Below, one piece after another: positions 1-33,705 of a stretch of DNA of 39,700 nt. The notes below the pieces were generated by a model. That model was not told the DNA's origin. It searched no databases and saw only the letters and a list, made by a program, of their open reading frames with translations. The stretch is from a virus. The translations under genes were made by a program, and so were the position numbers. How positions within the stretch are numbered: the stretch's first letter is position 1; each line of letters opens with the position of its first letter. The DNA is taken from positions 1 to 39,700 of the IMG/VR virus record IMGVR_UViG_3300047553_000688; one strand, 5' to 3'.

Positions 1-198
1 AAATCTATCAATAAAGAATTGTTTATCTACTTTAGAATTTTCCCAATCAAATAAGTAATCTGATACTGAAAATGAAATGTAAAATTCGTAATTATTTCCA
101 TCTACAAATTTAGATGTTTTATTTAAATCAACCAACACTCTTTCTAAATCATCCAACTCATGTGGCATTACGAATGATGTAATAACTATTTTTTTCAT
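1..198 (-). CDS. Putative phage glycosyltransferase-like protein (partial, C-terminus off window)
   Basis: The start codon and first 66 codons are inside the window, and the gene continues past base 1. The protein begins MKKIVITSFVMPHELDDLER, a hydrophobic strand followed by an acidic helix, as in the nucleotide-binding half of small phage glycosyltransferases. The ATG overlaps the TGA of the upstream gene in an ATGA arrangement, so the two are probably translationally coupled. It lies at the end of a long run of glycosyltransferases, which favours the same function, but no catalytic motif is visible in the part present. The function is inferred from the N-terminus and the neighbours. Confidence 0.55.
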   Translation of the reverse strand, partial: MKKIVITSFVMPHELDDLERVLVDLNKTSKFVDGNNYEFYISFSVSDYLFDWENSKVDKQFFIDRF

Positions 199-971
199 TT
201 GTATTTATTTTCTATTAAATTATTCAATTCCTCATTTCTATCGTATTGATGAACTAAAACATATGGAGTTTCTCCGTTCATAACAATTCCGTTTTGGATA
301 GAATATGTTTTCTTTTCAAATCTAGCATCTTTTGTTAATGTATCTACTTGCAATGCGAAATCAGAATTAACTTCAATTTTATCTTTAATTAAACTATTAT
401 TTATAATCAGATTTAATGAACTTTGGTCTGTAAAGTGTCTAACATCACCTGCTTGCGATACTAACCAATTTATCATTAATAAATCCATTACCGATTTACC
501 TTTACCTGCGATAACTCCAACATTTCCAATTGTATGTGGTTTAACCCAATCCCAAAATATAGGCCCATATCCTTCGTGGATATTTTTATGTGCCCAAGGT
601 TCATCTTCATTTTTAATACATTCGGATGCTACTATGATTTCTGATTTTAGATTTTGCGATAACCATTCCGTTGGATTCAACTGCCAAACAATATCTCTAA
701 CATCTGTTGTAATTATATGATTCCATTCTCTTTCATCATTTTGTAAGAACCACCACATATCAATTAATCGTTTCATATGAGGATGTCCTTGCAATTCTGC
801 ACCATAACACTCCCAACCCTTCAAAGTAAGATATTCAATTGTTTCCGATGGTAAATTATAGCATATCATTATTTTATCACCATTGAATCCACTATCGTTT
901 AGAGATTCTACATATATTTTAATCTTTTCTGGCAAATAGTTTGCTATTGCAGATATAACTAAATCTTTCAT
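195..971 (-). CDS. Putative glycosyltransferase (TDVRD motif)
   Basis: The 258-residue protein has an N-terminal alternating strand/helix pattern. A TTDVRDIVWQ segment lies at residues 88-97, resembling the TDxRDxxFQ metal/nucleotide-sugar site of several bacterial and eukaryotic GT-A-like families. Farther on come a GNVGVIAG segment near 149 and a DQSSLN segment near 182, also typical of that group. It probably transfers a sugar from a nucleotide donor in the cytoplasm; the acceptor is unknown. It overlaps the next gene by 4 bases (ATGA) and is 3 bases downstream of another glycosyltransferase. The glycosyltransferase class is fairly secure, the exact family is not. Confidence 0.65.
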   Translation of the reverse strand: MKDLVISAIANYLPEKIKIYVESLNDSGFNGDKIMICYNLPSETIEYLTLKGWECYGAELQGHPHMKRLIDMWWFLQNDEREWNHIITTDVRDIVWQLNPTEWLSQNLKSEIIVASECIKNEDEPWAHKNIHEGYGPIFWDWVKPHTIGNVGVIAGKGKSVMDLLMINWLVSQAGDVRHFTDQSSLNLIINNSLIKDKIEVNSDFALQVDTLTKDARFEKKTYSIQNGIVMNGETPYVLVHQYDRNEELNNLIENKYK

Positions 972-974
972 CGT

Positions 975-1727
975 TTATAGATTTTTGTATTTTCCGTATT
1001 TTTGCCAATCATTATGCATAAATAAACCTTCTCCGTGTGCTACTCCATAATTTTGCTGAACCCACCATTTTCCAATGTTGCCTTCCAATGCGATTCCATC
1101 CCCTGCAAATTGATTAACTGTATCTAAATAAAATTGTTTTTTATATAAACATGGATTGTTTGTCCAATTACCATATCGAGAATTTGTTAAAAAGTATTCA
1201 CCGAATTTTCCAATATATTCTGAAAATTCTTTATCGGCTTCACACCAATGTATTGAATCCAAAAGATGTGGTGATGTTGCTCCAATTTCATCATCATAGT
1301 AAGTCAGTTCGTGTCCCATATGTCTAAATGAAAAATGTGGAAAACCTGGATTCTTTCTGTGTCTATATCTAACTACATCAACACTACCATCCAACATTTC
1401 TAAACCAGATGATAATCTATCATATGTGGTTTCTTTATTTTCAATTAAATTCCAATCATGTTCTAAAACTAATACATTATCAGTTTCAGCATTTTCGGTT
1501 AATTTAATAAATGCTTTACCTATTCCAATATTTTGGGTCAACCCAATAAAATCTAATCCAAAATGTTTTGCTATTTGATAGTCTTGCTCATTAAATTCCT
1601 GAAACAATATAGTAACATCATTCACTATATCAAATAATCCATTTTCATAATAAGTAGTTAGGGTATCAACTAATACCTGTCCACTATGCCAAGCTAACAT
1701 TCCAATACTAATTGGTAATTTTTGCAT
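975..1727 (-). CDS. Putative glycosyltransferase, GT-A fold
   Basis: The 250-residue protein begins with a strand (LPISIGMLAWHSG) like the first nucleotide-binding strand of family 2 glycosyltransferases. An LVLEHDW segment at residues 86-92 stands where the DxD metal site is expected, with EHD replacing the usual DxD. The segment NIGIGKAF near residue 66 matches the conserved N-x-G region of GT2 enzymes. It overlaps the upstream glycosyltransferase by 20 bases. A cytoplasmic sugar transferase acting in the glycan island is likely; donor and acceptor are unknown. Confidence 0.6.
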   Translation of the reverse strand: MQKLPISIGMLAWHSGQVLVDTLTTYYENGLFDIVNDVTILFQEFNEQDYQIAKHFGLDFIGLTQNIGIGKAFIKLTENAETDNVLVLEHDWNLIENKETTYDRLSSGLEMLDGSVDVVRYRHRKNPGFPHFSFRHMGHELTYYDDEIGATSPHLLDSIHWCEADKEFSEYIGKFGEYFLTNSRYGNWTNNPCLYKKQFYLDTVNQFAGDGIALEGNIGKWWVQQNYGVAHGEGLFMHNDWQKYGKYKNL

Positions 1728-2358
1728 TTCTTAAATAATTTATAAAGTTATTGTAATCTTCTTTTTTTCTTTCATCCCAAACAGGTTCATCGGATGTTGT
1801 ACTCATTTCGGTTTCTACTTTAAAGTTTCTCAAACATGCTTTAGGTGATGGATTTACATCTTTAATGAAATTATCACCATACCATATTTTTATATTATCT
1901 GGGATATCAATCCAATTTTTTCTATTTAGCATAATAAAACATCCCCAACCCCAATCGTTCACACCAGGTTGCCAAACATCTAAATATGGTCCTGTTTCTT
2001 CATCAATTGGTTCTTTATAATTTCCTTCACCCATTCCGATGATACCAAATTGATTTAATAGATTTTCATCTATTGCACCAAATATATTTGGATTAAAGTT
2101 TATATCATCATTTAATAATGCAATTAAATTATTTTCGGCTATTTTAATTCCTAAATTCCATGCTGGATTGACATAAATGTTTTCTTCAACTTGAACCAAT
2201 TTTACTTTATCTAATGCTTCAAAATATTCAAAGAATTTATTACCATTATCTATCAATATTATTTCATCTACAAATTCGCATTTTATTAAATCAAATAATA
2301 ACTTTCCAATTCTATTGGATTTCCAAAGTGTTGGAATTACTATACTGTATTTATTCAT
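1708..2358 (-). CDS. Glycosyltransferase family 2-like protein
   Basis: The 216-residue protein starts MNKYSIVIPTLWKSNRIGKL, the typical first strand of family 2 glycosyltransferases. It continues with EIILIDNGN at residues 32-40 (nucleotide-binding strand), NPAWNLGI at 64-71 and LLNDDINF at 81-88, where NDD occupies the DxD metal-binding position. All the main GT-A landmarks are therefore in the expected order, although the protein is short. It sits between a methyltransferase gene (4-base overlap) and another glycosyltransferase (20-base overlap). Confidence 0.75.
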   Translation of the reverse strand: MNKYSIVIPTLWKSNRIGKLLFDLIKCEFVDEIILIDNGNKFFEYFEALDKVKLVQVEENIYVNPAWNLGIKIAENNLIALLNDDINFNPNIFGAIDENLLNQFGIIGMGEGNYKEPIDEETGPYLDVWQPGVNDWGWGCFIMLNRKNWIDIPDNIKIWYGDNFIKDVNPSPKACLRNFKVETEMSTTSDEPVWDERKKEDYNNFINYLRNAKITN

Positions 2359-2924
2359 AATAATTTTTTGAATATTAGAAGAACATCATCATATCTACCT
2401 TTATTGGCTCTCAAATCTATTACTTCATATGTAATACCCAATGTAGAACATAAACTATCTATTTTTTCCTTATCCGTATCGAAATTTTGTATATCTTCAA
2501 TAACCATAGTACCACCTTTTTTTACTTTTGGAAACCAATATTCTATTGCAAATAATTGAGAATCCAATGTATGTGGCCCATCATCTATTAAATAATCAAT
2601 TGAATTATCTTCAAACATATCCAATACTTTTTCTGTATATGCATCATTTTGAATAATGGTTATATCTCCCATTTTTCTAATATCATCTGCAATATCTTCC
2701 GACAATCCATCTCCAAATGGGTCTATGCCTGTTATTTCAGAATTAATAAACCAATCACGTAATAGTTTCATAGAAGTTCCTCTATGTACTCCTATTTCTA
2801 ATATTTTTAATTTATCATTTCTTTTAGGTGTAAATTCATCCGAATACCAACCATTTATATAATCATGCGTTGTACCCTTATCACTTTTGAAATCGGAAGC
2901 TTCGTAAAATTCTGAAAATGTCAT
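2355..2924 (-). CDS. Class I SAM-dependent methyltransferase (sugar O-methyltransferase-like)
   Basis: The 189-residue protein has the glycine-rich SAM loop ILEIGVHRGTS at 41-51, an acidic end of strand 2 at ITGIDPFG (64-71) and a YLIDDGPHT segment at 111-119 with acidic and His residues. VIEDIQ follows at 141-146. The KSDKGTTHDY stretch near residue 13 and the overall layout resemble macrocin/mycinose-type sugar O-methyltransferases and related stand-alone methyltransferases of glycan clusters. Being embedded among glycosyltransferases (end-to-start overlaps on both sides), methylation of a sugar is the most likely role. This is inferred; the acceptor could also be a small molecule. Confidence 0.75.
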   Translation of the reverse strand: MTFSEFYEASDFKSDKGTTHDYINGWYSDEFTPKRNDKLKILEIGVHRGTSMKLLRDWFINSEITGIDPFGDGLSEDIADDIRKMGDITIIQNDAYTEKVLDMFEDNSIDYLIDDGPHTLDSQLFAIEYWFPKVKKGGTMVIEDIQNFDTDKEKIDSLCSTLGITYEVIDLRANKGRYDDVLLIFKKLL

Positions 2925-3787
2925 TATTTGTGTTTTTTAAATTGTTCTATTATTTTATCTACTACCTGAATTTGAGTATAATTGTGTAATACTTTTATCA
3001 TTCCATTGTGTGCTATTCTTTCTCTCTCCTCTGCATTTTCATTGTAGTAGTTCATCTTTTCTATACAATCAAACATCTCATCGTAGTACACAATATCCTC
3101 ACCATCTATAAACATTTCAGAAAGACCTGTTTCTTCTGGCAACCTATCGGTTAAAACCATTTTACCGCAAGCCATTCCTTCAAATATTCTACGAGTAATT
3201 TCTTTCCATCTACTATTTTGAACAACCATCATACCACTATTCAAAAATTCAGTATGCTCTTTTGGTCCTAACCCATTTCTATTTCCAACTGCTCCCTCTG
3301 CCCAATGAGTTAAATAATCTAAAAATGCTGAGTTTCCGATTCCTCTACTCGTAACAGCAACATGCTTTGGTTCTAAATTCATAGGAAATTGAACTTTAGT
3401 ATCTGCAAAATGGTTTATCCAATCCGCATTTATTCCTCTATTTTTATATTCTTCGGCACATCGCTTATCAGGCGTTATCGTATAATGAAATCTATCCGCT
3501 TTTGGCGAATTTCTTTCAAAGTTTTGTGGGTCATCTCCACTTTCTTGTATCCAAAATGCAGGTACTAAATCTTTATTAAGATATTGTGAATCAAATCTAC
3601 CCCAATCCATAAACAATACAATATCAGTTTGTGGTTTAGAATCTACCCAATTCTTTAAGTCGGTATCGTTAGTTTTAACTATTTGAGTTTCCCAACCTCT
3701 TTCTTTAAATTCATTTACCAAAGCCATTGGAGTTGACCAAACCTCACCATCTCTATAATCGTATATGAATGTTATTTTATTTTGCAT
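2924..3787 (-). CDS. Glycosyltransferase, GT-B fold (CgeB-like)
   Basis: The 287-residue protein has an N-terminal Rossmann half with VLFMDWGRF near 57-65 and FWIQESGDDPQ at 78-88, a pattern common in CgeB-like glycosyltransferases. The C-terminal half carries SRWKEITRRIFEGMACGKM (192-210), where E203 is the probable donor-contacting Glu of the E-x7-E-like region. The protein is shorter than the usual 350-400 residues because the N-terminal domain is reduced. It overlaps the upstream gene by 11 bases and meets the methyltransferase at a single shared base. Confidence 0.75.
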   Translation of the reverse strand: MQNKITFIYDYRDGEVWSTPMALVNEFKERGWETQIVKTNDTDLKNWVDSKPQTDIVLFMDWGRFDSQYLNKDLVPAFWIQESGDDPQNFERNSPKADRFHYTITPDKRCAEEYKNRGINADWINHFADTKVQFPMNLEPKHVAVTSRGIGNSAFLDYLTHWAEGAVGNRNGLGPKEHTEFLNSGMMVVQNSRWKEITRRIFEGMACGKMVLTDRLPEETGLSEMFIDGEDIVYYDEMFDCIEKMNYYNENAEERERIAHNGMIKVLHNYTQIQVVDKIIEQFKKHK

Positions 3788-4409
3788 ATTCTTCTCTTTT
3801 AAAATTTATAGAATAATTATCCACACCATCCATATTATATGGAGAATATGGTTTCCAATTTTTACCAGATTGAATGAATTTTATTTCTGCATTAAATCTG
3901 TTTTTCTTAACATTTGTTAAATCAATACTTTTAGCGTATTCACTTGTCATCCACCAAAAATTGCCTGAATAAAAATATCCATAATAAAGTATTCCGTATG
4001 TATTGAAATCGCTTCTTTCGAATAATTTGAATACATCTTTCACTTTTTCTATATTAAAATAATTCATAACCTGTCTCCAAGTTATTATATTTTTATATTT
4101 TGGGTCATTTTGCTTAGATGCTCCTTTCGTATGAAGATACAAAATATAATCGGAATCTCCAAATTTTTTCATATCATTTTCTATCAAATCCAATGTTACA
4201 AATTCATGTCCTTTAGCTCTAACATCTCTTAGATTTGATACATCTATCATATCCAATATTTTTACTATTGAAGTATTTTCATCTGCTATTGAAATTCCAA
4301 CATTTAATTTATATGGAAAATTAAAATACTTTTTAATTAGATTTAATTGCTCATCTATTATGGATTCAACTCCATCAATTGCATATATGTGATAATATAT
4401 GTGAACCAT
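3777..4409 (-). CDS. Putative glycosyltransferase (HTKG motif)
   Basis: The 210-residue protein contains DYILYLHTKGASKQND at 87-102. The LHTKGxS motif is characteristic of a group of bacterial and viral glycosyltransferase-like proteins related to the rhamnan-synthesis F group. It has no membrane segment. It overlaps both neighbours (11 bases downstream, 1 base upstream), so it belongs to the same operon as the other sugar genes. The family call is tentative because the rest of the protein is divergent. Confidence 0.55.
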   Translation of the reverse strand: MVHIYYHIYAIDGVESIIDEQLNLIKKYFNFPYKLNVGISIADENTSIVKILDMIDVSNLRDVRAKGHEFVTLDLIENDMKKFGDSDYILYLHTKGASKQNDPKYKNIITWRQVMNYFNIEKVKDVFKLFERSDFNTYGILYYGYFYSGNFWWMTSEYAKSIDLTNVKKNRFNAEIKFIQSGKNWKPYSPYNMDGVDNYSINFKREEYAK

Positions 4410-5035
4410 TATAAAGTATCGTAGTAGTTATTTTGTTTTTCTTGTCTTTCTATTGTTTTTGGATGTTTAATACAATAAATTTCTTCTAATGGAAAATTTG
4501 TATAATTTTCGAATCCACCAATTCTTTCGTGCACTTTACCACTCCATCCAATTTGCTCTGGTTTGTTTTTGTAAATACGAGTCTGAACATCGGGAAAATT
4601 TACCCATCCTTTTTCATTTACGTTCCATCTCCATTTTTGGATATGGGATTCGGTCAATCCTTCTACTGTATTTATACGAGGAACTAAGATAAGGTCTTTA
4701 TCACTATTTGCTTCCAACAATGCTTCCATATTTACAATTAAATCCGGCGTAAGATATTCATCAGCATCTAATTGGAATATCCACTCACCTTTACATTGTG
4801 AATTTAATAGATTTTTCCATTGTGCAAAATCGTTATCAAATTCCGATTCGATAAGTGTAATATGGTCTGCATTTGCTTGTAACTCCAAATACTCTACCAA
4901 TTCGGTAGGAGCTTTTGGTGTATCCAATAGAACTACTATTTCAGAATTTTCTTCTTTGTAGTTTAATAACTGATTAACCAAACGAATGGTTTCATCGACT
5001 TCATTACAAGCCGTTATTGCGTAACTTAATTTCAT
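4409..5035 (-). CDS. Glycosyltransferase family 2
   Basis: The 208-residue protein is a clear GT-A enzyme. It has LSYAITACNEVDETIRLV at 3-20, a nucleotide-binding strand with EIVVLLDT at 32-39, and GEWIFQLDADEYLTPDL at 83-99 containing the DxD metal site D90-A-D92. This resembles LPS core and capsule glucosyltransferases of the WaaE/LpsA type. The start codon lies 32 bases inside the 3' end of the epimerase gene, an unusually long overlap, but the first strand begins right at this Met, so a later start would destroy the fold. Confidence 0.85.
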   Translation of the reverse strand: MKLSYAITACNEVDETIRLVNQLLNYKEENSEIVVLLDTPKAPTELVEYLELQANADHITLIESEFDNDFAQWKNLLNSQCKGEWIFQLDADEYLTPDLIVNMEALLEANSDKDLILVPRINTVEGLTESHIQKWRWNVNEKGWVNFPDVQTRIYKNKPEQIGWSGKVHERIGGFENYTNFPLEEIYCIKHPKTIERQEKQNNYYDTL

Positions 5036-5867
5036 TTATATATTCTTTTAATTGGTCTTTTGGTTGCCATCCCAATCTATTTAAGGCATCATCATTAATT
5101 CTTATAGTTTCTCTATAATTACCTTTTACATCATCCACATATTTAATTGGATGTGGTGCAAATAAACTAGCTATTTCATTTAAAGAGTAATTGCGACCTG
5201 TACCTAATTCCCAAGCATCTTCATGCTTTTCATCACTTTCTGCGATTCGTATTAATCCATCTACAATATCATTGATATGTGTAAAATCTCGTTTTTGCTT
5301 ACCATCTCCGTGAATTAGAATAGGAGTACCATTTTTTACAGCTGCCCTCCATAATCCAATTACAGCCGCCATATGAGAGTCTACCAATTCACCAGGTCCA
5401 TACACATTATAAAATCTTACTATCTCCGCATTCAATCCATATACCCCTTTAAACATCTTTATCCATTCCTCTCCCATATGTTTACTCATAGCATATGGTG
5501 ATAACATTGGATTATGATGCCTGGATGATGAACCTGCGTAAATTAATTTTGATTTTGTATGATATGCATATTCAACAACTTGCTTTGTACCATCTACATT
5601 TACTGAAAATGTCAATGTTGGATTTTGAAATGATGGTTGAATTCTACTTAATGCTGCCAAATGAAAAATGTAATCGTATTGAGTGTTTTGTATATTATCC
5701 ATTGCTCTAATATCTCCACCTAAAAACTTTACATATGGAGAAACTTTAGCTTCACTACCAATTGATAAATTATCAATTACATGAACTTCGTAACTTCTTT
5801 TAAGTAATTCGGATGAAAGAGCATATCCAACAAATCCTGCTCCACCCGTAACTAATACTTTTTTCAT
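5004..5867 (-). CDS. NAD-dependent sugar-nucleotide epimerase/dehydratase (GalE-like)
   Basis: The 287-residue extended short-chain dehydrogenase carries the NAD-binding GGAGFVG loop at 8-14, an acidic residue after strand 2 (VIDNLS, 30-35), GDIRAMD near 51, AGSSS at 111-115 and the catalytic Y125-x3-K129 pair (SPYAMSKHMGE). FYNVYGPG follows near 188. These are hallmarks of UDP-glucose 4-epimerase/GDP-mannose dehydratase-type enzymes, which convert nucleotide sugars in the cytosol. It probably supplies a donor for the neighbouring transferases. The exact substrate cannot be read from the sequence. Confidence 0.88.
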   Translation of the reverse strand: MKKVLVTGGAGFVGYALSSELLKRSYEVHVIDNLSIGSEAKVSPYVKFLGGDIRAMDNIQNTQYDYIFHLAALSRIQPSFQNPTLTFSVNVDGTKQVVEYAYHTKSKLIYAGSSSRHHNPMLSPYAMSKHMGEEWIKMFKGVYGLNAEIVRFYNVYGPGELVDSHMAAVIGLWRAAVKNGTPILIHGDGKQKRDFTHINDIVDGLIRIAESDEKHEDAWELGTGRNYSLNEIASLFAPHPIKYVDDVKGNYRETIRINDDALNRLGWQPKDQLKEYINEIKLRNNGL

Positions 5868-5868
5868 A

Positions 5869-6285
5869 CTATTCTTTTATATCTTTATTTCCACCATTTG
5901 TATAATGCCATGCTGAACCACTTGGGTATGTGTATGTAGTTGATGTTGAAAGTGAACCACTACCCCACGATACTAAATTAGGATTTGCTATTGTAATAGT
6001 TCCACTAACTCCAGGTGTTGTTGTAATCTTTGTACCATTTGTATCCGGTTGTTGGCAAGTTATCTTATATGGATTATATGGGTCTGTCAATGGACCCGGT
6101 GTAATATGTGGTAATGTTACAAATGGTGCTGAATTTGGAACTCCAAATGGAAATGATGGGGTTGAATCATCCTTAACTTCTGCTAATTTATCTTTTAACG
6201 CATCCCATTGTTTTGGCGTTGGTGCGTATTCGTGGCAGGCTTCTACAAAACCTTTTAACCATATAACGTATTCTTTTGATGTCAT
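5869..6285 (-). CDS. Conserved phage hypothetical protein with Ser/Thr/Gly-rich tail
   Basis: The 138-residue protein has two parts. The first 37 residues (MTSKEYVIWLKGFVEACHEY and onward, through PTPKQWDALKDKLAEV) look like a small helical domain found in many T4-like phages, whose function I do not know. The rest is Pro-, Thr-, Ser- and Gly-rich, with NPNLVSWGSGSLSTSTTYTY near residue 102, and is probably extended or beta-structured. Such a composition is compatible with a virion-exposed or glycan-accepting tail, but this is speculation. It overlaps the SGNH gene by 4 bases and is 1 base from the epimerase. Confidence 0.7.
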   Translation of the reverse strand: MTSKEYVIWLKGFVEACHEYAPTPKQWDALKDKLAEVKDDSTPSFPFGVPNSAPFVTLPHITPGPLTDPYNPYKITCQQPDTNGTKITTTPGVSGTITIANPNLVSWGSGSLSTSTTYTYPSGSAWHYTNGGNKDIKE

Positions 6286-7061
6286 AACAATTTATTTTTA
6301 ATTATGTATTCTTCTATTTTTTTTGCCACAATTATATTACCGTGTTTACTTATGTGATTATCGGGCACTAAACCATTAGTTTCAGCTTCTATTTGTAATC
6401 CTTCTTTTATACAAAAATGTTTTAAAGATAATCCATTAAATAATAATGTATTTTCAGCTGATTTAGATATAGTTTCTAAATGCATTTCATCATCTCCAAA
6501 ATCCCACCCACTCCATATTATTTTTGAACCTTTTGATTTTGCAAATGAATCAAATAGTTTTATATTTCTATTTAATGAATTTAATTCTGTTTCCAAATCA
6601 AATACATATTGTAAATAATTGGTAAAAAGTGTATGTAATGGTTTATGCGATTCTCTATTATCAAATGGATTTCCCGAAAATTCTAACATATTAAGATTAT
6701 ACTTTTGCTTATCCACTTCATAATACCAATATCTACGATGTAATAATGATAATATTACAAAGTAAACATCATTATTATTCTCATTGATTTGATTGAATAC
6801 GTTTTCAAATATATAATCATTTGAAGCTTGGGATTTTGCTAAATTGATTATTGGCGTTTTTAGTGAACTTTCTAATACAGATGTAAATCTATGTTGCTCT
6901 TTATATGAATCTAAAAATTCAACTACTTTAACTCTATCCTCTGGCGTAGAACCTTTTGGCCAATATTCTAATATTGGTGTTGGCGATTCTATGAAATTAT
7001 AATAATCGATATTATTTAATCCACCACCTTCTGTAAAACTACATCCAAAAAATTTTATCAT
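6282..7061 (-). CDS. SGNH/GDSL-like hydrolase-fold protein
   Basis: The 259-residue protein opens with IKFFGCSFTEGGGLN; Ser8 in GCSFTEG occupies the nucleophile position of block I in this SGNH-like group. Near the C-terminus VPDNHISKHGN (233-242) supplies an Asp and His pair in the position of the DxH block V. It is probably an esterase or acetyl-transferring enzyme that trims or adds acyl groups on glycans, as suggested by the sugar genes around it; this is inferred. A second protein of the same type is at 11322-12179. The start follows TAATAAGTT directly, where TAA is the upstream stop. Confidence 0.65.
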   Translation of the reverse strand: MIKFFGCSFTEGGGLNNIDYYNFIESPTPILEYWPKGSTPEDRVKVVEFLDSYKEQHRFTSVLESSLKTPIINLAKSQASNDYIFENVFNQINENNNDVYFVILSLLHRRYWYYEVDKQKYNLNMLEFSGNPFDNRESHKPLHTLFTNYLQYVFDLETELNSLNRNIKLFDSFAKSKGSKIIWSGWDFGDDEMHLETISKSAENTLLFNGLSLKHFCIKEGLQIEAETNGLVPDNHISKHGNIIVAKKIEEYIIKNKLL

Positions 7062-7067
7062 AACTTA

Positions 7068-7541
7068 TTATATGTTTCCTTTTTGAGATTTTTTATCAAT
7101 CCCAATAACATTCATATTTTTAGGAGTCAATTCATTTACATCCATATTAAGTTCTATCATTTTTCCAAATCCACTTATCTTATAAGTTCTATATGATTCA
7201 TTTGTAATAATTGGAACTTTGGAAACTACACTTGAATAAAATTTCTTAGCTCCACCTCTCATTTCCAATCTCTCTTCATCTTCATTTACAAACTTACCAA
7301 AGAATCTTTTAATTAAATTTGGATTTACATTTGATACTTTTATAGCATGAACTATATCTTTTGATTTGGATACAAATAATGTATAAATGATTGGGGCAGT
7401 TGTTTCTGTAAATCTACCCTTAGTTCCATCCACATATTCATATTCTTTTATTAGATAAAATTTAGCTCTAACCATTTTGGAAGCTGGAATATATTTCCTT
7501 TCATCTATGAATTTACGATATATGGGATTATAATTACTCAT
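7068..7541 (-). CDS. Hypothetical protein
   Basis: The 157-residue protein is rich in Lys and aromatic residues, with no signal peptide, membrane helix or recognised catalytic motif. The order of short strands (RAKFYLIKEYEYVDG, PIIYTLFVSKSKDIVHAI) followed by NPNLIKRFFGKFVNEDEE suggests a small alpha/beta domain. It sits between a GT4 glycosyltransferase (1-base overlap) and the SGNH gene (6-base gap) and is probably co-translated with them. No function can be assigned from the sequence. Confidence 0.75.
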   Translation of the reverse strand: MSNYNPIYRKFIDERKYIPASKMVRAKFYLIKEYEYVDGTKGRFTETTAPIIYTLFVSKSKDIVHAIKVSNVNPNLIKRFFGKFVNEDEERLEMRGGAKKFYSSVVSKVPIITNESYRTYKISGFGKMIELNMDVNELTPKNMNVIGIDKKSQKGNI

Positions 7542-8809
7542 TATTTGTTAAGAGGTTTTAACTTTGGTAATTGTAGTTGCTGAAACTTAGGTTGTACTTT
7601 AGTATAAATACCATAGTGATTTAAAATTCCATCAAACAATTTAGTCATTTTTTCTAAACCAAAATTTTGTTTATTTTGCTTACCTAATTGAAATGCTGCC
7701 ACTTTGTATTTATCATAGTTTTTATAAACATCTTTAATAACGGGCAATGCTTTTGAAACATTTACATTAAACCATTGTGCTTCTTTTAATAAGAATTGGT
7801 CTGCAGCTGATTCGTGTACCTCTTTCAATTCACCTTCCAATAAAACTGCTCCACTCTTTAGGAAATCCAAATGCCCACTCCAATTGGAAACAATTACAGG
7901 CTTACCTGTTAAACTGAATTCTAATAATGGTCTACCAAATCCCTCACCTTTTGTAAAGTTCAACATTGCTTTTACTTTTGAATGCTCATATAAACCATTC
8001 ATTTGAGATGGTGTTAAATCTCCATGTAATAAATAAATTGGAACTGATTTGTAATCTGAACCCAATGCTGATTTTATTTTTTTGATTGTAGTTTCTCTAT
8101 CAATAACGCTAAATCCTGCTGATGATGTTTTTAAAATTAATGCTGGCTTTTTCTTTTCATTTTTGAATGCCATTGCAAATGTCTTAATCATCATTCCCAC
8201 ATTCTTTCTATCCTCACCTAAATCACCTCTTAACCAATGTCCTACGAATAGAAATGCAAAATCTTCTTTGATTTCATCCAATTCAGTTATGTGTGCTACA
8301 TGTTCTGTTCCAAAATCCGATTCATCAAATCCTTCAAACAATACTTCGACAGGCTTATTAATTTTATGTTGACCAATCAATCTACCAGTTTGTTTATCTT
8401 GCTCATTATAAATCGTATCTATCAAACTTTTCTTTGAATGCTCGGATGGAACAATAATTAAATCCATTCTATTACAACCATGCACCCAATCTAATGCACA
8501 ATGAGTAGTTTCAATTGCCGCTGTGATTCCAATGTTATAAAATCCTAATGGTTGGAATTCGTTTGGAACAGTTACCTGAATGTAAATATCTGGCTTTTGT
8601 TGAATGCCTGGAATAATATTTTCAATTATCCATTTGTGAAATTCGTTATCATAATTAAGTGTATCCATTGGAGTTGAACCCCATCTTGTACTGATTACTT
8701 TAATATCAAATTTATCCAATTTATAAAGAGAATGTAATAAATCTCTTGCGTGGTCACCATATCCACTTCTCGTTGCTACCGGTGCCTGAAATATTAATGT
8801 TGGTTTCAT
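7541..8809 (-). CDS. Glycosyltransferase, GT-B fold, GT4-like
   Basis: The 422-residue protein has the two-domain layout of GT4 enzymes. The N-terminal domain has APVATRSGYGDHARDLL at 9-25, a glycine-rich loop for the acceptor side. The C-terminal domain has AFLFVGHWLRG at 185-195 and the donor-binding KGEGFGRPLLEFSLTGKPVI at 287-306, with E289 and E297 as the conserved E-x7-E pair. It is cytoplasmic and probably uses a nucleotide-sugar donor. It follows another GT4 gene with a 1-base gap and precedes a hypothetical with a 1-base overlap. Confidence 0.85.
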   Translation of the reverse strand: MKPTLIFQAPVATRSGYGDHARDLLHSLYKLDKFDIKVISTRWGSTPMDTLNYDNEFHKWIIENIIPGIQQKPDIYIQVTVPNEFQPLGFYNIGITAAIETTHCALDWVHGCNRMDLIIVPSEHSKKSLIDTIYNEQDKQTGRLIGQHKINKPVEVLFEGFDESDFGTEHVAHITELDEIKEDFAFLFVGHWLRGDLGEDRKNVGMMIKTFAMAFKNEKKKPALILKTSSAGFSVIDRETTIKKIKSALGSDYKSVPIYLLHGDLTPSQMNGLYEHSKVKAMLNFTKGEGFGRPLLEFSLTGKPVIVSNWSGHLDFLKSGAVLLEGELKEVHESAADQFLLKEAQWFNVNVSKALPVIKDVYKNYDKYKVAAFQLGKQNKQNFGLEKMTKLFDGILNHYGIYTKVQPKFQQLQLPKLKPLNK

Positions 8810-8810
8810 A

Positions 8811-10190
8811 TTATAACTCTATTAACTTAAATTTTTGTTTTGGTTTCCAATTTGCAAATGCACCTTCCATTCCCTCAACTAATGCATCACACATTGCTTC
8901 TTTACTTAATTTACCTTCTCCTAAGAAATGTTTTCTACCCTTTAATCCAGCTGCTTTTCTTTCTTCTCTACCCATTTTGTAGAAATCCATAATCAAAGGT
9001 GCTACATCTTCAAAATCAATTCTATCATCAAAGATATATGGAGTAGGAACTGAACCTGTTGTTGAGCGAACTGGCCAAATTGGTTTAACCCAATCTCCCC
9101 AAACTACACCGGCTTTTTTGTGCCTATCATGCAATGAACCAATCTCTACATAATCTTCGGCAGTTAATAATTTGCCCGTACCATTTTCTCTAAATCCGCA
9201 TTGGTCTTGCAATCCACCCGTTACCGTTACAATAATTGGAGTTCCAGCCATTACCGATTCTGCAGTTGCTAAACCAAATCCTTCGTTAGATGCTACATTA
9301 ATTGTTACATCCGCTAAATTGTAAAGATAGTTTAATTGTTCTTCGGTATATTTGTTTGGTGCAAATATTACATTTGTTTCAGGCATACAATGCTCAATAA
9401 AAGTTGGTAAATCAGTACCATGCTCTTGTACAGGTTCGGTGTGCATTAGCATACAAACCTTATCCCATTTATCTTTAGGCAATGCTTCTCTGAATTTATC
9501 AAATGCTAACATCGCATCCATAGGTTGCTTTCTACGAATATTTCTGTTATTCCAATAAAGAACAAATTCATATTCTTTATCACCAAAGATACTTTTCTTA
9601 AAATCAGCAGGTACATCTACCGGCTTATACAAATCCGAATTAATACCATGTGGTACATAACTTACTTGCCAATCTTCTGGCTTAGTCCAATGTTTTTCTT
9701 TATCCCAAGCATATACTCTTTTAGTAATACCATAAGTTTGCTTTGAGATACATCCAATCCAATCACAACTTTCGTAGTAATCTCTATTGTATTTTGGGTC
9801 TGGCAAATCATCCCAAATGTGATAAAAGAAAAGCGGAACTGATTGGCGAATTTCATGCTCAATATCATACAACCAAATCCAATAACGAGGGTCTGTAAAG
9901 TGTAAGATAGCGTCGGGCTGCTCTCTCATCAATAATTGTCTAATGATATCGGCATTACCATACCCATCGGATGGATATATTTTTACCTCCGCATCGGCAA
10001 CACCTGTTTGCTCTCTAACACTTTGATTTAAATCTAAAATTTTCCCTGCTTCGGGATGTTTAATTGCTGCACCTAATTGAACCCAATCGTATTTATCAAC
10101 TGTTCCCAATACTAATTGTTTGGATACGTTGGCAATACCACTAGTCATTCTAAGGTCATCAGAAAGTAACAGAATCTTTTTCTTTGCCAT
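8811..10190 (-). CDS. Glycosyltransferase, GT-B fold, GT4-like
   Basis: The 459-residue protein opens with a Rossmann strand and glycine loop (KKILLLSDDLRMTSGIANVS, 4-23). It carries VSYVPHGINSDLYKP at 176-190, the usual hinge segment of GT4 enzymes. The donor site ASNEGFGLATAESVMAGTPI lies at 300-319, with the E303/E311 pair. GHxE-type aromatic segments (HFTDPRYWIWLY, 97-108) may contact the acceptor. It is probably the first gene of the glycan operon, immediately downstream of the small ribbon-helix-helix gene. The start is preceded by AAAATAAGTT rather than a Shine-Dalgarno. Confidence 0.88.
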   Translation of the reverse strand: MAKKKILLLSDDLRMTSGIANVSKQLVLGTVDKYDWVQLGAAIKHPEAGKILDLNQSVREQTGVADAEVKIYPSDGYGNADIIRQLLMREQPDAILHFTDPRYWIWLYDIEHEIRQSVPLFFYHIWDDLPDPKYNRDYYESCDWIGCISKQTYGITKRVYAWDKEKHWTKPEDWQVSYVPHGINSDLYKPVDVPADFKKSIFGDKEYEFVLYWNNRNIRRKQPMDAMLAFDKFREALPKDKWDKVCMLMHTEPVQEHGTDLPTFIEHCMPETNVIFAPNKYTEEQLNYLYNLADVTINVASNEGFGLATAESVMAGTPIIVTVTGGLQDQCGFRENGTGKLLTAEDYVEIGSLHDRHKKAGVVWGDWVKPIWPVRSTTGSVPTPYIFDDRIDFEDVAPLIMDFYKMGREERKAAGLKGRKHFLGEGKLSKEAMCDALVEGMEGAFANWKPKQKFKLIEL

Positions 10191-10206: not shown

Positions 10207-10404
10207 TTAAAATTGTGAACCACTAATTTGTAATGTAGTGTATTCGTTTAATTGTTTTCTAAATTCTTCGTTTTTCGTGTAAAGGTCTAATGTTCTATTA
10301 ACAAGTCTTTGAAAATTCAATCCACCTTGAATTGTGGTTATTTTAAAATCCTCATCATATAACTTTTTTATAACCTTAACCGTAGTTAATTTTAAATCCG
10401 CCAT
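10207..10404 (-). CDS. Small ribbon-helix-helix-like protein, possible regulator
   Basis: I place the start at the ATG at 10404, giving 65 residues (MADLKLTTVKVIKKLYDEDF...). An in-frame ATG at 10458 would add 18 hydrophobic, poorly coding residues over the palindrome and the end of the upstream gene, so it is rejected. The order is a short strand (LKLTTVKVIKKLY, 4-16), a helix, a turn with GGLNFQRLVNRTLDLYTK and a basic/acidic helix (NEEFRKQL). This is the layout of Arc/MetJ-type ribbon-helix-helix DNA-binding proteins. A perfect 10-bp inverted repeat just upstream (10416-10439) would be a natural operator, suggesting autoregulation. The fold is inferred from the pattern only. Confidence 0.6.
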   Translation of the reverse strand: MADLKLTTVKVIKKLYDEDFKITTIQGGLNFQRLVNRTLDLYTKNEEFRKQLNEYTTLQISGSQF

Positions 10405-10415
10405 AGTTAATAATA

Positions 10416-10439
10416 TTTGTATATACATATATATACAAA
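10416..10439. repeat. Perfect inverted repeat, possible operator
   Basis: TTTGTATATA (10416-10425) and TATATACAAA (10430-10439) are perfect reverse complements separated by CATA. The site fills the gap between the nuclease gene stop (10443) and the start of the small ribbon-helix-helix-like gene (10404). The stem is A/T only apart from one G/C pair per arm, and no run of T follows it in the direction of transcription, so a protein-binding site is more likely than a terminator. Confidence 0.6.
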
Positions 10440-10442
10440 AAA

Positions 10443-11303
10443 TTATTTTCCATCGCAATGTGTTCCATAAAACTCACACCATCCACATAATTTTGATGGC
10501 TTCTTAGGATATTCAACATCCGTTCTATATGTACCATCTTCATTAAATACACTATTTACAAATTCAGTAAATCCTTTCCATGCTTTATTAATAGATGGCT
10601 TACCACTTGCGGGTACGTGTCTACTAATACGTGGAATATGAAAATCCGCATTTTCCGATACTTTACGTTTTAATATGATGAATTCAACTTCAATCATATC
10701 TTCGGAAATCTTTAGCATCTCTGCATAGAATTTCTTATACAAAAGTATTTGTGTATTTTTAATTGGGTCTGATTTTTGATACTTACTCCAACCTTTTGTA
10801 GATGTTTTGAAATCGGTAATACGATATTTGCCAGTTTTCTTACTTCTAACAATAAAGTCAATAAATCCCAAAAAGTTTACATTTTCTGAAATTTTTGTAT
10901 TGATGGGTTGCTCAATAGCAACCAACTCATCATCTTTTAAAGAAAAGAAATTATTGAAGTTTTTTGGCTTTTGAAAGTAGTCTAAAATGAGATTTCCATC
11001 TTCTAAAAACTCTACCAATTCTTCCTTAGAACATATAGGGTCTTTACCTTCGTTGGATTCTTTGAGAAAGAATTCTCTCATTTTTTCTTTAAGAAATGCC
11101 TTCGTATCCATTCCTTTATCAGCTTGTGATTTGGAGATACGAAGACATCTGCTTAAATATTCCTGCAATGTTTCGTGCATTGCTGAACCAAATACAGAAT
11201 GTATATTGGATGATGATTCTCTTAAATCATCTATGTAACTTAGTTTATATTGATGTGGGCAACTGCTCCACATACTATATTGTGAAAATGATACTCTAGC
11301 CAT
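10443..11303 (-). CDS. PD-(D/E)XK nuclease, RecB/Cas4/AddB-like, with predicted Fe-S cluster
   Basis: The 286-residue protein has the Cas4/RecB-nuclease layout. It has an early Cys (SSCPHQYKLSY, C15), FGSAMHE with His43, D149 in LGFIDFIV, and the catalytic D164-F-K166 in YRITDFKTS. The C-terminal cysteine group is C273-x2-C276-x6-C283. C15 plus the last three cysteines match the 4Fe-4S staple of AddB and Cas4 nucleases. It probably degrades or processes DNA ends during recombination or host-DNA breakdown. A host-type promoter lies immediately upstream (11308-11339), with the -7 box only 4 bases from the ATG, so the mRNA may be leaderless. Confidence 0.85.
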   Translation of the reverse strand: MARVSFSQYSMWSSCPHQYKLSYIDDLRESSSNIHSVFGSAMHETLQEYLSRCLRISKSQADKGMDTKAFLKEKMREFFLKESNEGKDPICSKEELVEFLEDGNLILDYFQKPKNFNNFFSLKDDELVAIEQPINTKISENVNFLGFIDFIVRSKKTGKYRITDFKTSTKGWSKYQKSDPIKNTQILLYKKFYAEMLKISEDMIEVEFIILKRKVSENADFHIPRISRHVPASGKPSINKAWKGFTEFVNSVFNEDGTYRTDVEYPKKPSKLCGWCEFYGTHCDGK

Positions 11304-11307
11304 ATTA

Positions 11308-11339
11308 CAAATATAATCAATTTATTCGGATTTACCAAA
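11308..11339 (-). promoter_or_regulatory. Bacteroidota-type promoter for the PD-(D/E)XK nuclease gene
   Basis: Read on the minus strand, TTTG (11339-11336) is followed by 20 bases and TATATTTG (11315-11308). This matches TTTG-N19-21-TAnnTTTG, the known Bacteroidota primary sigma consensus. Then come TAAT and the ATG at 11303. The -33 box lies inside the 3' end of the SGNH gene. The predicted transcription start is at or within a few bases of the start codon. Confidence 0.75.
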
Positions 11340-12179
11340 GGTTTCATCGATTATTTTTGTAAGTTTTTCAGCCCAAATTTTAGACCCCAATTCATTAGGG
11401 TGTCCATCATTTTTTATGTTGTAAGATTCATCACTTTTTATGAAATCATTCAAAGTCATTTCATTATAGTAAAATGGATTTGATTTCATAAGTTCTATTA
11501 ATTTTGAATTAATGGTAGGATAGTGTGCTTTATAAAAAAATTCCGCATCATTTATTGAATTTGTTACTTCAATTTTATAAGCCGGCTTACCAGTTGAATC
11601 TTTTAAATACCAATCTTTTCCAAACTTAACAGGTATGTGATTGTTTAATCCATCGAATATAAGATATGGATATCCATTTGCTTTACAAAAATTAACAAAA
11701 TTAATAATATTATTGTAGGTTTTCCACAATGAAAATGTTATATTTGTGTACAATTGTGCAATCTGAAATCTATTATCTACTATCCATCTATTCAATTCAA
11801 ATGTGGTATCCCAATTCTTAAATCCATCTGCTGTAATTTTTCTACTATCCTTTGGGTCTAAAAATTGTAATGGAGTTATATGCCAATATAACGAATGTAA
11901 ATCCGTATTTTCTCTAAAATCCTCCCAACAAATTAAAAATCTTAAACATTCCGATAATTGAATAATAAAAAAACTATCTTTAGCTATTTCGGGGTTTAAA
12001 GTAGAATAATTAATAACATTTTGTGTAATTATTTCATTACCTATCCCACCCTTAGCTAAATTTATTAAATCCATATTATGATGATTTGCTAAATGTTTAG
12101 CCCAAGATGCATCAGCTCCTATCAAATGACCTTCGGTAAATGAACAACCAGAGGTTACTAAATATTGTTTATCTAACAT
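11322..12179 (-). CDS. SGNH/GDSL-like hydrolase-fold protein
   Basis: The 285-residue protein carries LVTSGCSFTEGHLIG at 7-21, with Ser13 in the nucleophile position. INLAKGGIGNEI (39-50) has the Gly/Asn oxyanion residues expected of blocks II/III. NDGHPNELGSKIW near 257-269 contains D258 and H260 of the catalytic DxH block. The set is more complete than in the paralogue at 6282-7061. It probably deacylates or esterifies a small carbohydrate or lipid-linked substrate. It sits at the end of the clamp-loader operon (1-base overlap with gene 62), which is odd for a glycan enzyme. Confidence 0.75.
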   Translation of the reverse strand: MLDKQYLVTSGCSFTEGHLIGADASWAKHLANHHNMDLINLAKGGIGNEIITQNVINYSTLNPEIAKDSFFIIQLSECLRFLICWEDFRENTDLHSLYWHITPLQFLDPKDSRKITADGFKNWDTTFELNRWIVDNRFQIAQLYTNITFSLWKTYNNIINFVNFCKANGYPYLIFDGLNNHIPVKFGKDWYLKDSTGKPAYKIEVTNSINDAEFFYKAHYPTINSKLIELMKSNPFYYNEMTLNDFIKSDESYNIKNDGHPNELGSKIWAEKLTKIIDETFGKSE

Positions 12180-21738: not shown

Positions 21739-21770
21739 CAAATATAACAAATTAATTTTAAATTACCAAA
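21739..21770 (-). promoter_or_regulatory. Bacteroidota-type promoter for the DruA-like gene
   Basis: Minus strand: TTTG (21770-21767), 20 bases, TATATTTG (21746-21739), then TAAT and the ATG at 21734. The -7 box and spacing to the start codon are identical to the promoter at 11308-11339. The -33 box falls in the last codons of the upstream Mom-like gene. A leaderless or near-leaderless mRNA is predicted. Confidence 0.78.
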
Positions 21771-22566
21771 ATTTAGTATCTATTTCGGTTTCTGGTGCGA
21801 TTGTTGTCCAATGTTGGATATCTTTATTATAAGCACGTGCATCTTTTGGATAAGGTCTAATTTCGTGCTTAAAGGATTTCATAATTGCTTTCTTTTCCTT
21901 CTTATCAGCGGTGATAATTTGTAAGTATCTATGTTTTGGTGGTTCTTCTCTTCTCCAAAACTCTTTATAACCCTGCTTACCAATTTCTCTTCTAAGGTGT
22001 TCTAAGTTACCACTACCCCACTTAGTAAACACAGTCCTACTATGAATCCATTTATAAGGGTCATTTGATAGAGAGATACCATAATTTGGCATTAGAGCGA
22101 TATCAGTATTTAAACCCTGATAAATCCAATTCGTTGCCTGATAAATGCCACCTAAATGTTCTTGTCCATTATCTGCATAAGAAATTAGAGCTTTGATAGC
22201 CGAATCATTTTCTCTGAACCACTTAAATGATTGTCCCATTGCGTATGATTCTATGTTAGAGCCATAACCATCATCACAATATAAACGAGTCAATTCTAAT
22301 ACATTATCTTTTGTAAGTAAATCGGAAATAGAAGTTGCTGCTCTTGCTCCTACGGGAAATCCATAAACCAAACATCCAATCAATTTATCAGTTTCACCAA
22401 CTGCATTTGCTTCATCCATTTTATAGAATATACCTAATGCATATCTACACGCAGTCCAAGCGTGAGTGTAGTGTTTCTTTACAATGATATCTTTTGCTAC
22501 ATCCTTACCTATTGGTGAAATGTAAACTCTCGATGTATCGCAATAATTTTTACCTTCTTCTTTCAT
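21763..22566 (-). CDS. Mom-like DNA modification protein (first of tandem pair)
   Basis: The 267-residue protein contains VKKHYTHAWTACRYALGIFY at 29-48, LIGCLVYGFPVG (62-73), VLELTRLYCDDGYGSNIES (89-107), LISYADNGQEHLGGIYQATN (127-146) and WIYQG. This set (xHY...ELTRL...SYAD...GxIYQATNWxYxG) is typical of the phage Mu Mom family, GNAT-fold enzymes that convert adenine in DNA to N6-methylcarbamoyl adenine and protect from restriction. About 100 extra C-terminal residues include PPKHRYLQII and a basic tail. The tandem neighbour is a paralogue. The modification made here is not readable from sequence. Confidence 0.75.
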   Translation of the reverse strand: MKEEGKNYCDTSRVYISPIGKDVAKDIIVKKHYTHAWTACRYALGIFYKMDEANAVGETDKLIGCLVYGFPVGARAATSISDLLTKDNVLELTRLYCDDGYGSNIESYAMGQSFKWFRENDSAIKALISYADNGQEHLGGIYQATNWIYQGLNTDIALMPNYGISLSNDPYKWIHSRTVFTKWGSGNLEHLRREIGKQGYKEFWRREEPPKHRYLQIITADKKEKKAIMKSFKHEIRPYPKDARAYNKDIQHWTTIAPETEIDTKFW

Positions 22567-22570
22567 AACT

Positions 22571-23326
22571 TTAATTTACTGGCTCTAATTTAATTATCTC
22601 CTCCACAAACTCTGTATTAAGTTTTGGATATGGTAGGGATGGGTATTTTAATGATTTTAATAATTTTTTTCTTTCTCTACCACTCAATAATATATAAACA
22701 TATCTATGTTTTCGTGGTTCTTTTTTAATCCAAAATGGTGATGTTACCATTGTTTGAATTATCTTTGGGTCATTAGTTCCATATTTCACATATGAAGTTC
22801 TACTATGGTGCCATTCATCAATCTCACTCCATTTAAAACTCCAACTATCGTTTGGTCTAATTTTATTTCCCTGATATATCCAATTGGTAGCTTGATAAAC
22901 AGTTCCTAAGTGTCCAACTTTTGGGTCTGAATATGATACCAATGCTTTGATATGTGGTGCATTTTCTCTTAACCATTCGAATGTTTTACCAACAAACCAA
23001 CTTTCAATATTACTACCATATCCATCAAATACAAATAAACGGGTCAGCTCTAAAACCTCCGTTCTATCTAATAGTTCCGAAATAGATGCGCCGGAGTGTC
23101 TACCAATTGGGTCACCATAACAAGCTATACCAATCAGTTTTTCATTTACTCCACCAAAGAATTTGTGTTCATCATTCGATATATAAAATAAACCGATAGC
23201 ATAAGATACCTTCGTCCATATACCACTATAATGGTTATTAACGATGATATCTTTTGCTATATCTTTACTTACTAATCTTATTGAAAGTTTGGATATATCA
23301 CAATATTCTTTTCCTTCTACTTTCAT
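22571..23326 (-). CDS. Mom-like DNA modification protein (second of tandem pair)
   Basis: This 251-residue paralogue of the adjacent gene starts with the same MKxEGKxYCD. It keeps IIVNNHYSGIWTKVSYAIGL (27-46), LIGIACYGDPIG (64-75), VLELTRLFVFDGYGSNIES (91-109) and SYSDPKVGHLGTVYQATNWI (131-150) followed by YQG. KHRYVYILLSGRERKK is near the C-terminus. The two copies are clearly diverged (for example SYAD against SYSD), so this is an old duplication and the copies may differ in sequence preference or partner. Mom-family membership rests on motif order; catalysis is inferred from Mu Mom. Confidence 0.75.
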   Translation of the reverse strand: MKVEGKEYCDISKLSIRLVSKDIAKDIIVNNHYSGIWTKVSYAIGLFYISNDEHKFFGGVNEKLIGIACYGDPIGRHSGASISELLDRTEVLELTRLFVFDGYGSNIESWFVGKTFEWLRENAPHIKALVSYSDPKVGHLGTVYQATNWIYQGNKIRPNDSWSFKWSEIDEWHHSRTSYVKYGTNDPKIIQTMVTSPFWIKKEPRKHRYVYILLSGRERKKLLKSLKYPSLPYPKLNTEFVEEIIKLEPVN

Positions 23327-33054: not shown

Positions 33055-33705
33055 TTATTTATCTAAATTTAAATTGTCTGCTTCTACTCTTTGTAAGATT
33101 ATAATAGAACCTACATTTTCTCTAATATTTGAAAATGAATGAATCCTATATTCTGGGTTTTGTCTTACAAAATCCAATACTGCATTTTGTAATTCTTTTT
33201 GTGTCCAAAAATCATCAATCATAATAAACTTAGCCTGTAATGATTTTGTTAGCATCATTTCTTCTAACAACATATCATATGTATGCGTACTATCTAACCA
33301 AGCTAAATCAACTCTGATTCCCGTATTATTTAATTGAGTAAGAAGTTGAATACTATTGATATTCTGATAAAAAACTTTATTATCATCATAATATTCGTTA
33401 ATGAAATTTACACATCGCATCGATTGATTATCGGAATGTGCATCGCATGTGAATAGTTTGAAATCATTTAATGTTTCATACAAAACATAACTAAAAGAAC
33501 CATAATTAGTTCCCGTTTCTAAAATTGTAAATGGTTTTTGTTCAATGAGAAATTCTCTCATAAATGTAGTACCACGTCTAGAATTGTTTAAGTCGTAATC
33601 CGAAATACCATCAATACTTCCGGCATTACCACCCCAACCCATCCTATTGTTAAGGCTTTCATTTATAAGGAATTCGTAAACTGGTCCTTGGTAAATATCC
33701 TTCAT
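33055..33705 (-). CDS. Class I SAM-dependent methyltransferase
   Basis: The 216-residue protein has the SAM-binding loop TILETGTNYGSFSYVL at 60-75, an acidic strand-2 end at LFTCDAHSDN (83-92), LAWLDSTHTYDMLLEEMM near 132-149 with an acidic/His catalytic-type site, and FIMIDDFW near 160-167. It resembles stand-alone methyltransferases of the Methyltransf_24 kind that act on small molecules or sugars; protein or nucleic acid targets cannot be excluded. It starts a transcription unit from its own promoter, with the Nmad1-like gene next. Confidence 0.72.
   Translation of the reverse strand: MKDIYQGPVYEFLINESLNNRMGWGGNAGSIDGISDYDLNNSRRGTTFMREFLIEQKPFTILETGTNYGSFSYVLYETLNDFKLFTCDAHSDNQSMRCVNFINEYYDDNKVFYQNINSIQLLTQLNNTGIRVDLAWLDSTHTYDMLLEEMMLTKSLQAKFIMIDDFWTQKELQNAVLDFVRQNPEYRIHSFSNIRENVGSIIILQRVEADNLNLDK

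Follow-up and report, generated by a model that had tools for sequence, protein, structure and literature searches.

A glycan operon in a T4-related phage combines a fixed head of three glycosyltransferase genes with a tail of sugar-related genes that is swapped between related phages. The operon lies in IMG/VR record IMGVR_UViG_3300047553_000688, whose 39,700 bases are hereafter called the window, and the same head was found in a second phage group, that of Flavobacterium phage immuto. Phage glycosyltransferase islands are already known; the addition made here is the fixed-head, swapped-tail architecture common to the two groups. As a rule, such islands have been regarded as variable cargo whose target is unsettled.

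Fixed operon head in two phage groups

Loci were collected by their GT4a gene, a GT-B type glycosyltransferase (W34 in the window, 8811–10190; all operon genes are on the minus strand, and open reading frames (ORFs) were numbered W32 to W47 by order of transcription). For the window's group, the best 80 of 443 IMG/VR candidates by the window GT4a were taken, and for the immuto group the best 80 of 130 candidates by the GT4a of phage immuto. This choice biases both samples towards close relatives. The loci were fetched via GT4a, so the comparison applies to its neighbours only, and the totals below are the loci long enough to show the gene in question.

GT4b, a second GT-B type transferase (W35, 7541–8809), directly followed GT4a in 62/62 loci of the window's group and in 59/59 of the immuto group. 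A GT2 glycosyltransferase homologous to W40 (4409–5035) was found within seven ORFs in 42/42 and 44/44 loci, respectively. Upstream of GT4a, a PD-(D/E)XK nuclease (W32, 10443–11303; PF12705, 69.5 bits) was present in 78/78 and 74/74 loci. The order nuclease, GT4a, GT4b, GT2 is therefore constant in both groups. The DNA polymerases beside it differ, with family B in the window versus family A annotated in the immuto record, which means that the head is older than the two groups or was exchanged across them.

The head genes are also slow-evolving. In rough estimates, for which the pairs could differ at as many as 60% of synonymous sites, the median ratios of nonsynonymous to synonymous substitution (dN/dS) were 0.119 for GT4a, 0.115 for GT4b and 0.077 for GT2, compared with 0.069 for the clamp loader used as a yardstick. 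The tail transferases ranged from 0.15 to 0.26, and two small proteins of the operon, W36 and W38, reached 0.39 and 0.42. Strong purifying selection acts on the head, which evolves at a rate close to that of the clamp loader; W36 and W38 are less conserved. An island made of ordinary variable cargo only was rejected for the head, whose neighbours are constant and slow-evolving. Every locus checked retains the head, and its rate of evolution is about that of replication proteins, which indicates that part of the island has an essential, constant job.

The head was also seen beyond the two samples. Among 12 metagenome-bin contigs of a genome collection, GT4a and GT4b were found together in 11, and GT2 as well in nine; the remaining contig (L192) had none of the three by profile. 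The bin names were mixed, with Flavobacteriales or Flavobacteriaceae in 3/12, and the contigs are probably phage contigs in bins. In Microcystis phage Mel-JY01 (L083, PP395634.1), GT4a is annotated as two ORFs, followed by GT4b and GT2. RM378 has GT4a and then two weak GT2 matches, with no GT4b match at threshold. Both GT4a and polymerase point to Mel-JY01 as the nearest cultured relative, though other relatives suggest Bacteroidota hosts.

Swapped operon tail

Comparison of the tail drew on the 31 loci of the window's group that have 8.5 kb or more of downstream sequence. W35, W36 and W40 were present in all 31. The genes after W40 formed 23 distinct sets drawn from 36 families, of which W41, W42 and W45 alone reached 80% of loci and 26 occurred in 20% or fewer. 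Scanning of 20 representatives gave Pfam names for DegT aminotransferases, RmlD, HAD plus nucleotidyltransferase proteins, a hexapeptide acyltransferase, epimerase/dehydratases, C- and O-methyltransferases and further transferases. Island content thus varies between related phages in the tail, with the head constant. At the level of genes, not of sugars, this corresponds to a conserved core with variable outer enzymes.

Operon layout and gene content

The window comes from a T4-related phage. Its other genes include a family B DNA polymerase, clamp loader subunits, UvsX and a DnaB-type helicase, together with a clamp, a single-strand binding protein, a ribonucleotide reductase and PhoH, and a gp23-type capsid gene was present in all five related records examined. 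The evidence suggests that its hosts are aquatic Bacteroidota.

The glycan genes run as one close-packed series from base 10190 down to base 1, where the contig ends inside the operon. Spacings between genes range from -32 to +16 bases, which agrees with the dense packing reported in an earlier note on the region 1–10190. The whole forms a single operon, longer than 11 kb within the window. Its true start lies outside 1–10190, at a promoter (11308–11339) and the PD-(D/E)XK nuclease gene. Judged from two long relatives, G001 (245 kb) and G002 (198 kb), the full operon looks to be about 16 kb long; by locus-range arithmetic, it lies between promoter motifs at 194,001 and 210,983 in G001 and between 52,142 and 34,351 in G002. 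With several transferases and sugar-nucleotide enzymes clustered in a T4-like phage, the region is a phage glycosyltransferase island.

Nine of the operon genes encode glycosyltransferases or likely ones. Pfam identifies four of them, PHROG one and a predicted GT-A fold two, while the last two have weak or motif evidence. The four above Pfam cut-offs are W34 (PF00534, 39.6 bits, cut-off 26.4; also phrog_2170), W40 (PF00535, 43.8 bits), W42 (2924–3787; Glyco_trans_1_2, PF13524, 79.2 bits) and W44 (1708–2358; GT2, PF00535, 28.1 bits). W35 matched phrog_2170, 'glycosyltransferase', with an E-value of 6.9e-23, and PF00534 with 23.3 bits, under the cut-off. W41 (3777–4409) and W45 (975–1727) matched no Pfam family. 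Their AlphaFold models fell among GT-A enzymes, with a best Z of 10.7 over 156 residues at 3.3 Å for W41, which has no DxD motif, and a best Z of 16.6 over 194 residues at 3.9 Å for W45. W46 (195–971) is a probable glycosyltransferase with a weak Nucleotid_trans match (PF03407, 15.1 bits, under the cut-off of 22) and with D90 and D93 invariant in 19 homologues. W47 (1–198), cut by the contig end, is the start of another probable one. Its full-length family of about 299 amino acids, seen in 20 homologous loci, has invariant D111 and D113 (DTD), and a profile comparison of this family with W45 gave no match.

In PDB sequence searches, the best match of GT4a was B736L of chlorovirus NY-2A (E 4.2e-11), itself a GT-B enzyme encoded by a virus. 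GT4b gave a single row with E 0.066, W36 and W37 gave chance-level rows only, and the W47 family, W46 and W42 gave none.

The accessory enzymes are an NAD-dependent nucleotide-sugar epimerase/dehydratase (W39, 5004–5867; PF01370, 158.3 bits), found in the head of 12/31 loci, a methyltransferase (W43, 2355–2924; Methyltransf_24, PF13578, 42.5 bits), and an SGNH-like hydrolase or acyl-transfer protein (W37, 6282–7061), found in 5/31 loci. W37 matched no Pfam family, and its GCSF and D-x-H blocks, which we take to be SGNH blocks, were invariant in nine homologues. Two ORFs have no assigned function: W33 (10207–10458, 83 amino acids), with a match in 36/83 loci, and the fast-evolving W36 (7068–7541, 157 amino acids), which lies between GT4b and GT2 in 31/31 loci and has neither a Pfam nor a PHROG match. 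A 152-amino-acid immuto protein was rejected as a W36 homologue, at 16% identity.

The earlier note had listed about nine glycosyltransferases, an epimerase, a methyltransferase and an SGNH protein, and all of these were recovered; there is good support for its proposal that they could build or reshape a chain of several sugars. The ORFs at 7068–7541 and 5869–6285, the operon start at 11339 and the head/tail rule were absent from it. Just upstream of the operon, a second ORF (11322–12179, minus strand) starts with GCSFTEG like W37, and it was found in 18/80 loci.

Small Ser/Thr-rich protein of the operon

W38 (5869–6285) is a protein of 138 amino acids with a conserved N-terminus and a mosaic, Ser/Thr-rich tail. 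The first 38 residues are conserved, with a median identity of 82% over the first 40, whereas the remainder has 58% identity and 31% gaps. The tail contains 28% Ser+Thr, compared with 11% in window proteins, and 24% Gly and Pro; the 11 most Ser/Thr-rich of 1473 ORFs were all W38 members. Linker and end types were variously combined, three linker types for example each occurring with two or three end types, and this variety points to recombination. W38 was single-copy and inside the operon in 9/9 records. Forms of at least 100 amino acids were present in 24 of the 31 loci, the others having short forms or none. In the immuto group it was nearly missing, with two matches to forms of 73 amino acids. 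Its N-terminal domain also occurs in Pseudomonas phages, where no glycosyltransferase is annotated nearby.

Promoter and expression class

The operon start carries a Bacteroidota-type promoter motif, TTTG-N20-TATATTTG (11308–11339, minus strand), in front of W32, and from there down to base 1 there is no further sense match. The Bacteroidota consensus, TTTG / TAnnTTTG as given in PMC2483708, had nine matches in the window versus 2.8 expected, a number reached in none of 100 shuffles. Six of the nine were on the coding strand, each 4–96 bases upstream of a start codon (37636, 33730, 32672, 21739, 15156 and 11308, minus strand). In the window's group, the motif was found at the corresponding place in 35 of the 72 loci with enough upstream DNA, always at -1137 to -899 from GT4a. 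The consensus was found upstream of the operon in 0/64 loci of the immuto group. Inside the islands of the window's group, 67 antisense versus 10 sense matches were counted, and one antisense match of the window falls inside the GT4b coding sequence.

The strict motif occurred 15 times in G001, on one strand only, and 13 times in G002, with no match of the reversed-pattern control in either. Both genomes have a long motif-free stretch that contains the major capsid gene (55,283–164,748, 109 kb, in G001; 79,224–154,034, 75 kb, in G002). The Bacteroidota-type motif may therefore mark non-late genes, and the absence of the motif from the capsid-bearing stretches places the operon outside the late class. 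It looks to belong to the non-late genes of a phage using host-type Bacteroidota promoters. Two candidate late motifs were of no use: the T4 late-type motif TATAAATA had six matches in the window versus 10.7 expected, and a motif guessed from three upstream sequences of structural genes was absent from the window, too rare in relatives, and was dropped.

Possible acceptors of the glycan

We tentatively favour, at a little under even weight, a phage-encoded cytoplasmic glycan that has a conserved stem, ends in type-specific outer sugars and is most likely attached to a virion protein. The three head transferases would assemble the shared stem on the acceptor, to which the tail enzymes of each phage would add outer sugars of its own. 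That a virion protein is the acceptor is the less certain part of this scheme. Each phage would then have its own sugar coat, which might hide it from host defences or tune its binding.

A cytoplasmic product is consistent with the absence of predicted membrane proteins among the island's 14 window ORFs (best hydropathy 1.41; holin control 2.0). Hydropathy values of at least 1.6 were found in no island ORF of the window and in 14/627 and 7/567 ORFs in relatives; 12 of those 14 ORFs belong to one HAD-nucleotidyltransferase family. Lacking a predicted membrane protein, the window island shows neither a flippase nor a polymerase for polysaccharide export, and export of the island product as a polysaccharide was rejected.

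Among known precedents, chlorovirus capsid glycosylation fits the virion target best in architecture, and a chlorovirus enzyme is also the closest solved relative of GT4a. A bolder proposal, which we regard as possible but rather doubtful, is that Bacteroidota phages share an old three-transferase stem module, inherited vertically or exchanged, that primes a protein-bound cytoplasmic glycan, with a plug-in outer module setting the glycotype of each phage. In the window's group, W38 would serve this glycan as its own or a further acceptor. Such a system would be the counterpart, in viruses of prokaryotes, of the conserved-core glycan of chloroviruses.

Several points weigh against a virion acceptor. 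The acceptor itself is inferred, and the virion genes lie outside the window. Like those for the DNA glucosyltransferases of T4, the glycan genes are neighbours of a nuclease gene and of replication genes. A non-late promoter is of no help to the virion target, and early or middle timing suits modification of DNA or of the host surface at least equally. The match between GT4a and B736L spans residues 200–330 only, and the activity and acceptor of B736L are themselves unproven. The NY-2A capsid glycans, as described in PMC9614988, are without mannose.

Timing is one reason to consider the host surface, where lipopolysaccharide or capsule intermediates would be altered early so that competing phages cannot attach. 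A swapped tail also suits arms races over receptors, and the islands of pelagimyophages (PMC7029224) and jumbo cyanophages (PMC7824862) are described in those papers as host-recognition or surface-changing, a target that their authors prefer. Against this, the window island has none of the genes associated with O-antigen or capsule conversion (flippase, polymerase or lipid-phosphate sugar transferase), and slow evolution of the head would be expected more with a constant acceptor made by the phage itself than with a surface differing from host to host. We consider a host-surface target unlikely. Less probable still is that the acceptor is W38, a mucin-like protein both encoded and decorated by the operon. 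The composition of its tail, its mosaic structure and rapid evolution, and its single copy in the operon would all be expected of such an acceptor, but some loci of the window's group have it in a short form or not at all, the immuto group hardly has it, and the N-terminal domain is found in Pseudomonas phages away from annotated glycosyltransferases. We regard W38 as a very unlikely target.

Glycosylation of DNA falls between these two and is, in our view, improbable. Here the head would put sugars on a modified base, the tail would vary them against restriction, and the nuclease would act on unmodified DNA. The operon does lie beside clamp, clamp loader and polymerase genes, its nuclease is linked in every locus scored, its promoter is non-late, and multi-sugar DNA modification by phage pathways is on record (Pyle 2024, as referenced in PMC12619734), besides the precedent of T4. 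The enzymes that would modify the base did not turn up in the records searched. A Tet/JBP dioxygenase was found in 0/12 long records, and a cytosine-5 methylase match above the cut-off in 1/12. Thymidylate-synthase family proteins occurred in 4/12 records (two different sets of 12 were used), all with the ordinary motif PFNIASY; a hydroxymethylase carries Asp at this place. No hydroxymethyl-pyrimidine enzyme was found in the records searched, which may be fragments and in which divergent or unfamiliar base hydroxylases would escape. The groups share the head but not their other DNA-modification genes: G001 and G002 have a Mom-like pair, and immuto has DpdA and QueF. The earlier note had named virion, host surface and DNA as targets without choosing; the first two stand as possibilities, and the third is weakened, no hydroxymethyl-pyrimidine enzyme having been found. 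The three head genes and the cultured phage immuto, whose laboratory host is Flavobacterium sp. LMO8, make the question of the decorated target directly testable.

Comparison with known systems

Chloroviruses build their capsid glycans with their own enzymes, as a conserved core with a virus-specific outer part (PMC9614988, PMC7826918, PMC5408694). The likeness to the window lies in soluble virus-coded enzymes, in the core and outer scheme, and in the GT4a match to NY-2A B736L. Chloroviruses differ in being eukaryotic viruses, B736L has no proven core role, and the similarity of GT4a is partial. Furthermore, chlorovirus glycan genes are scattered and do not form one operon.

Pelagimyophages and cyanophages, which are T4-like and aquatic, also have islands rich in glycosyltransferases and sugar enzymes, in sets that vary (PMC7029224, PMC7824862). 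As those papers describe them, these islands are sited in the structural region with tail fibres, unlike the island of the window in its replication-side region, and a fixed transferase head does not figure in the descriptions consulted. Mycobacteriophages use their own glycosyltransferases, as the window phage would, and decorate capsid and tail with them (Freeman 2023, as cited in PMC12619734).

Moraphages are large aquatic phages of 200–307 kb with predicted Flavobacteriia hosts, and four glycosyltransferase orthogroups are among those common to at least 80% of their genomes (PMC12619734). They resemble the window phage in being T4-related and aquatic and in their shared glycosyltransferases, and the long relatives of the window are contigs of 198 and 245 kb. 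The window may belong to the moraphage lineage. The parts of PMC12619734 consulted differ in giving no gene order, head/tail split or promoter, and they leave the target unsettled. Searches of open-licence papers returned no account of a fixed head shared by several groups, of its promoter or of how it contrasts with the tail.

Other features of the window

Rfam and tRNA searches of the window gave no match. Four replication-side ORFs (34171–36312, 33055–33705, 37668–38429 and 38806–39588, minus strand), one of them of 713 amino acids, were without a PHROG match at E 0.01. Two adjacent Mom-like genes (phrog_1384; 21763–22566 and 22571–23326, minus strand) form a pair that has no counterpart in immuto-group records or in Mel-JY01. 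The ORF at 36364–37629 (minus strand) weakly matches family A type phage DNA polymerases and lies beside the complete family B polymerase.

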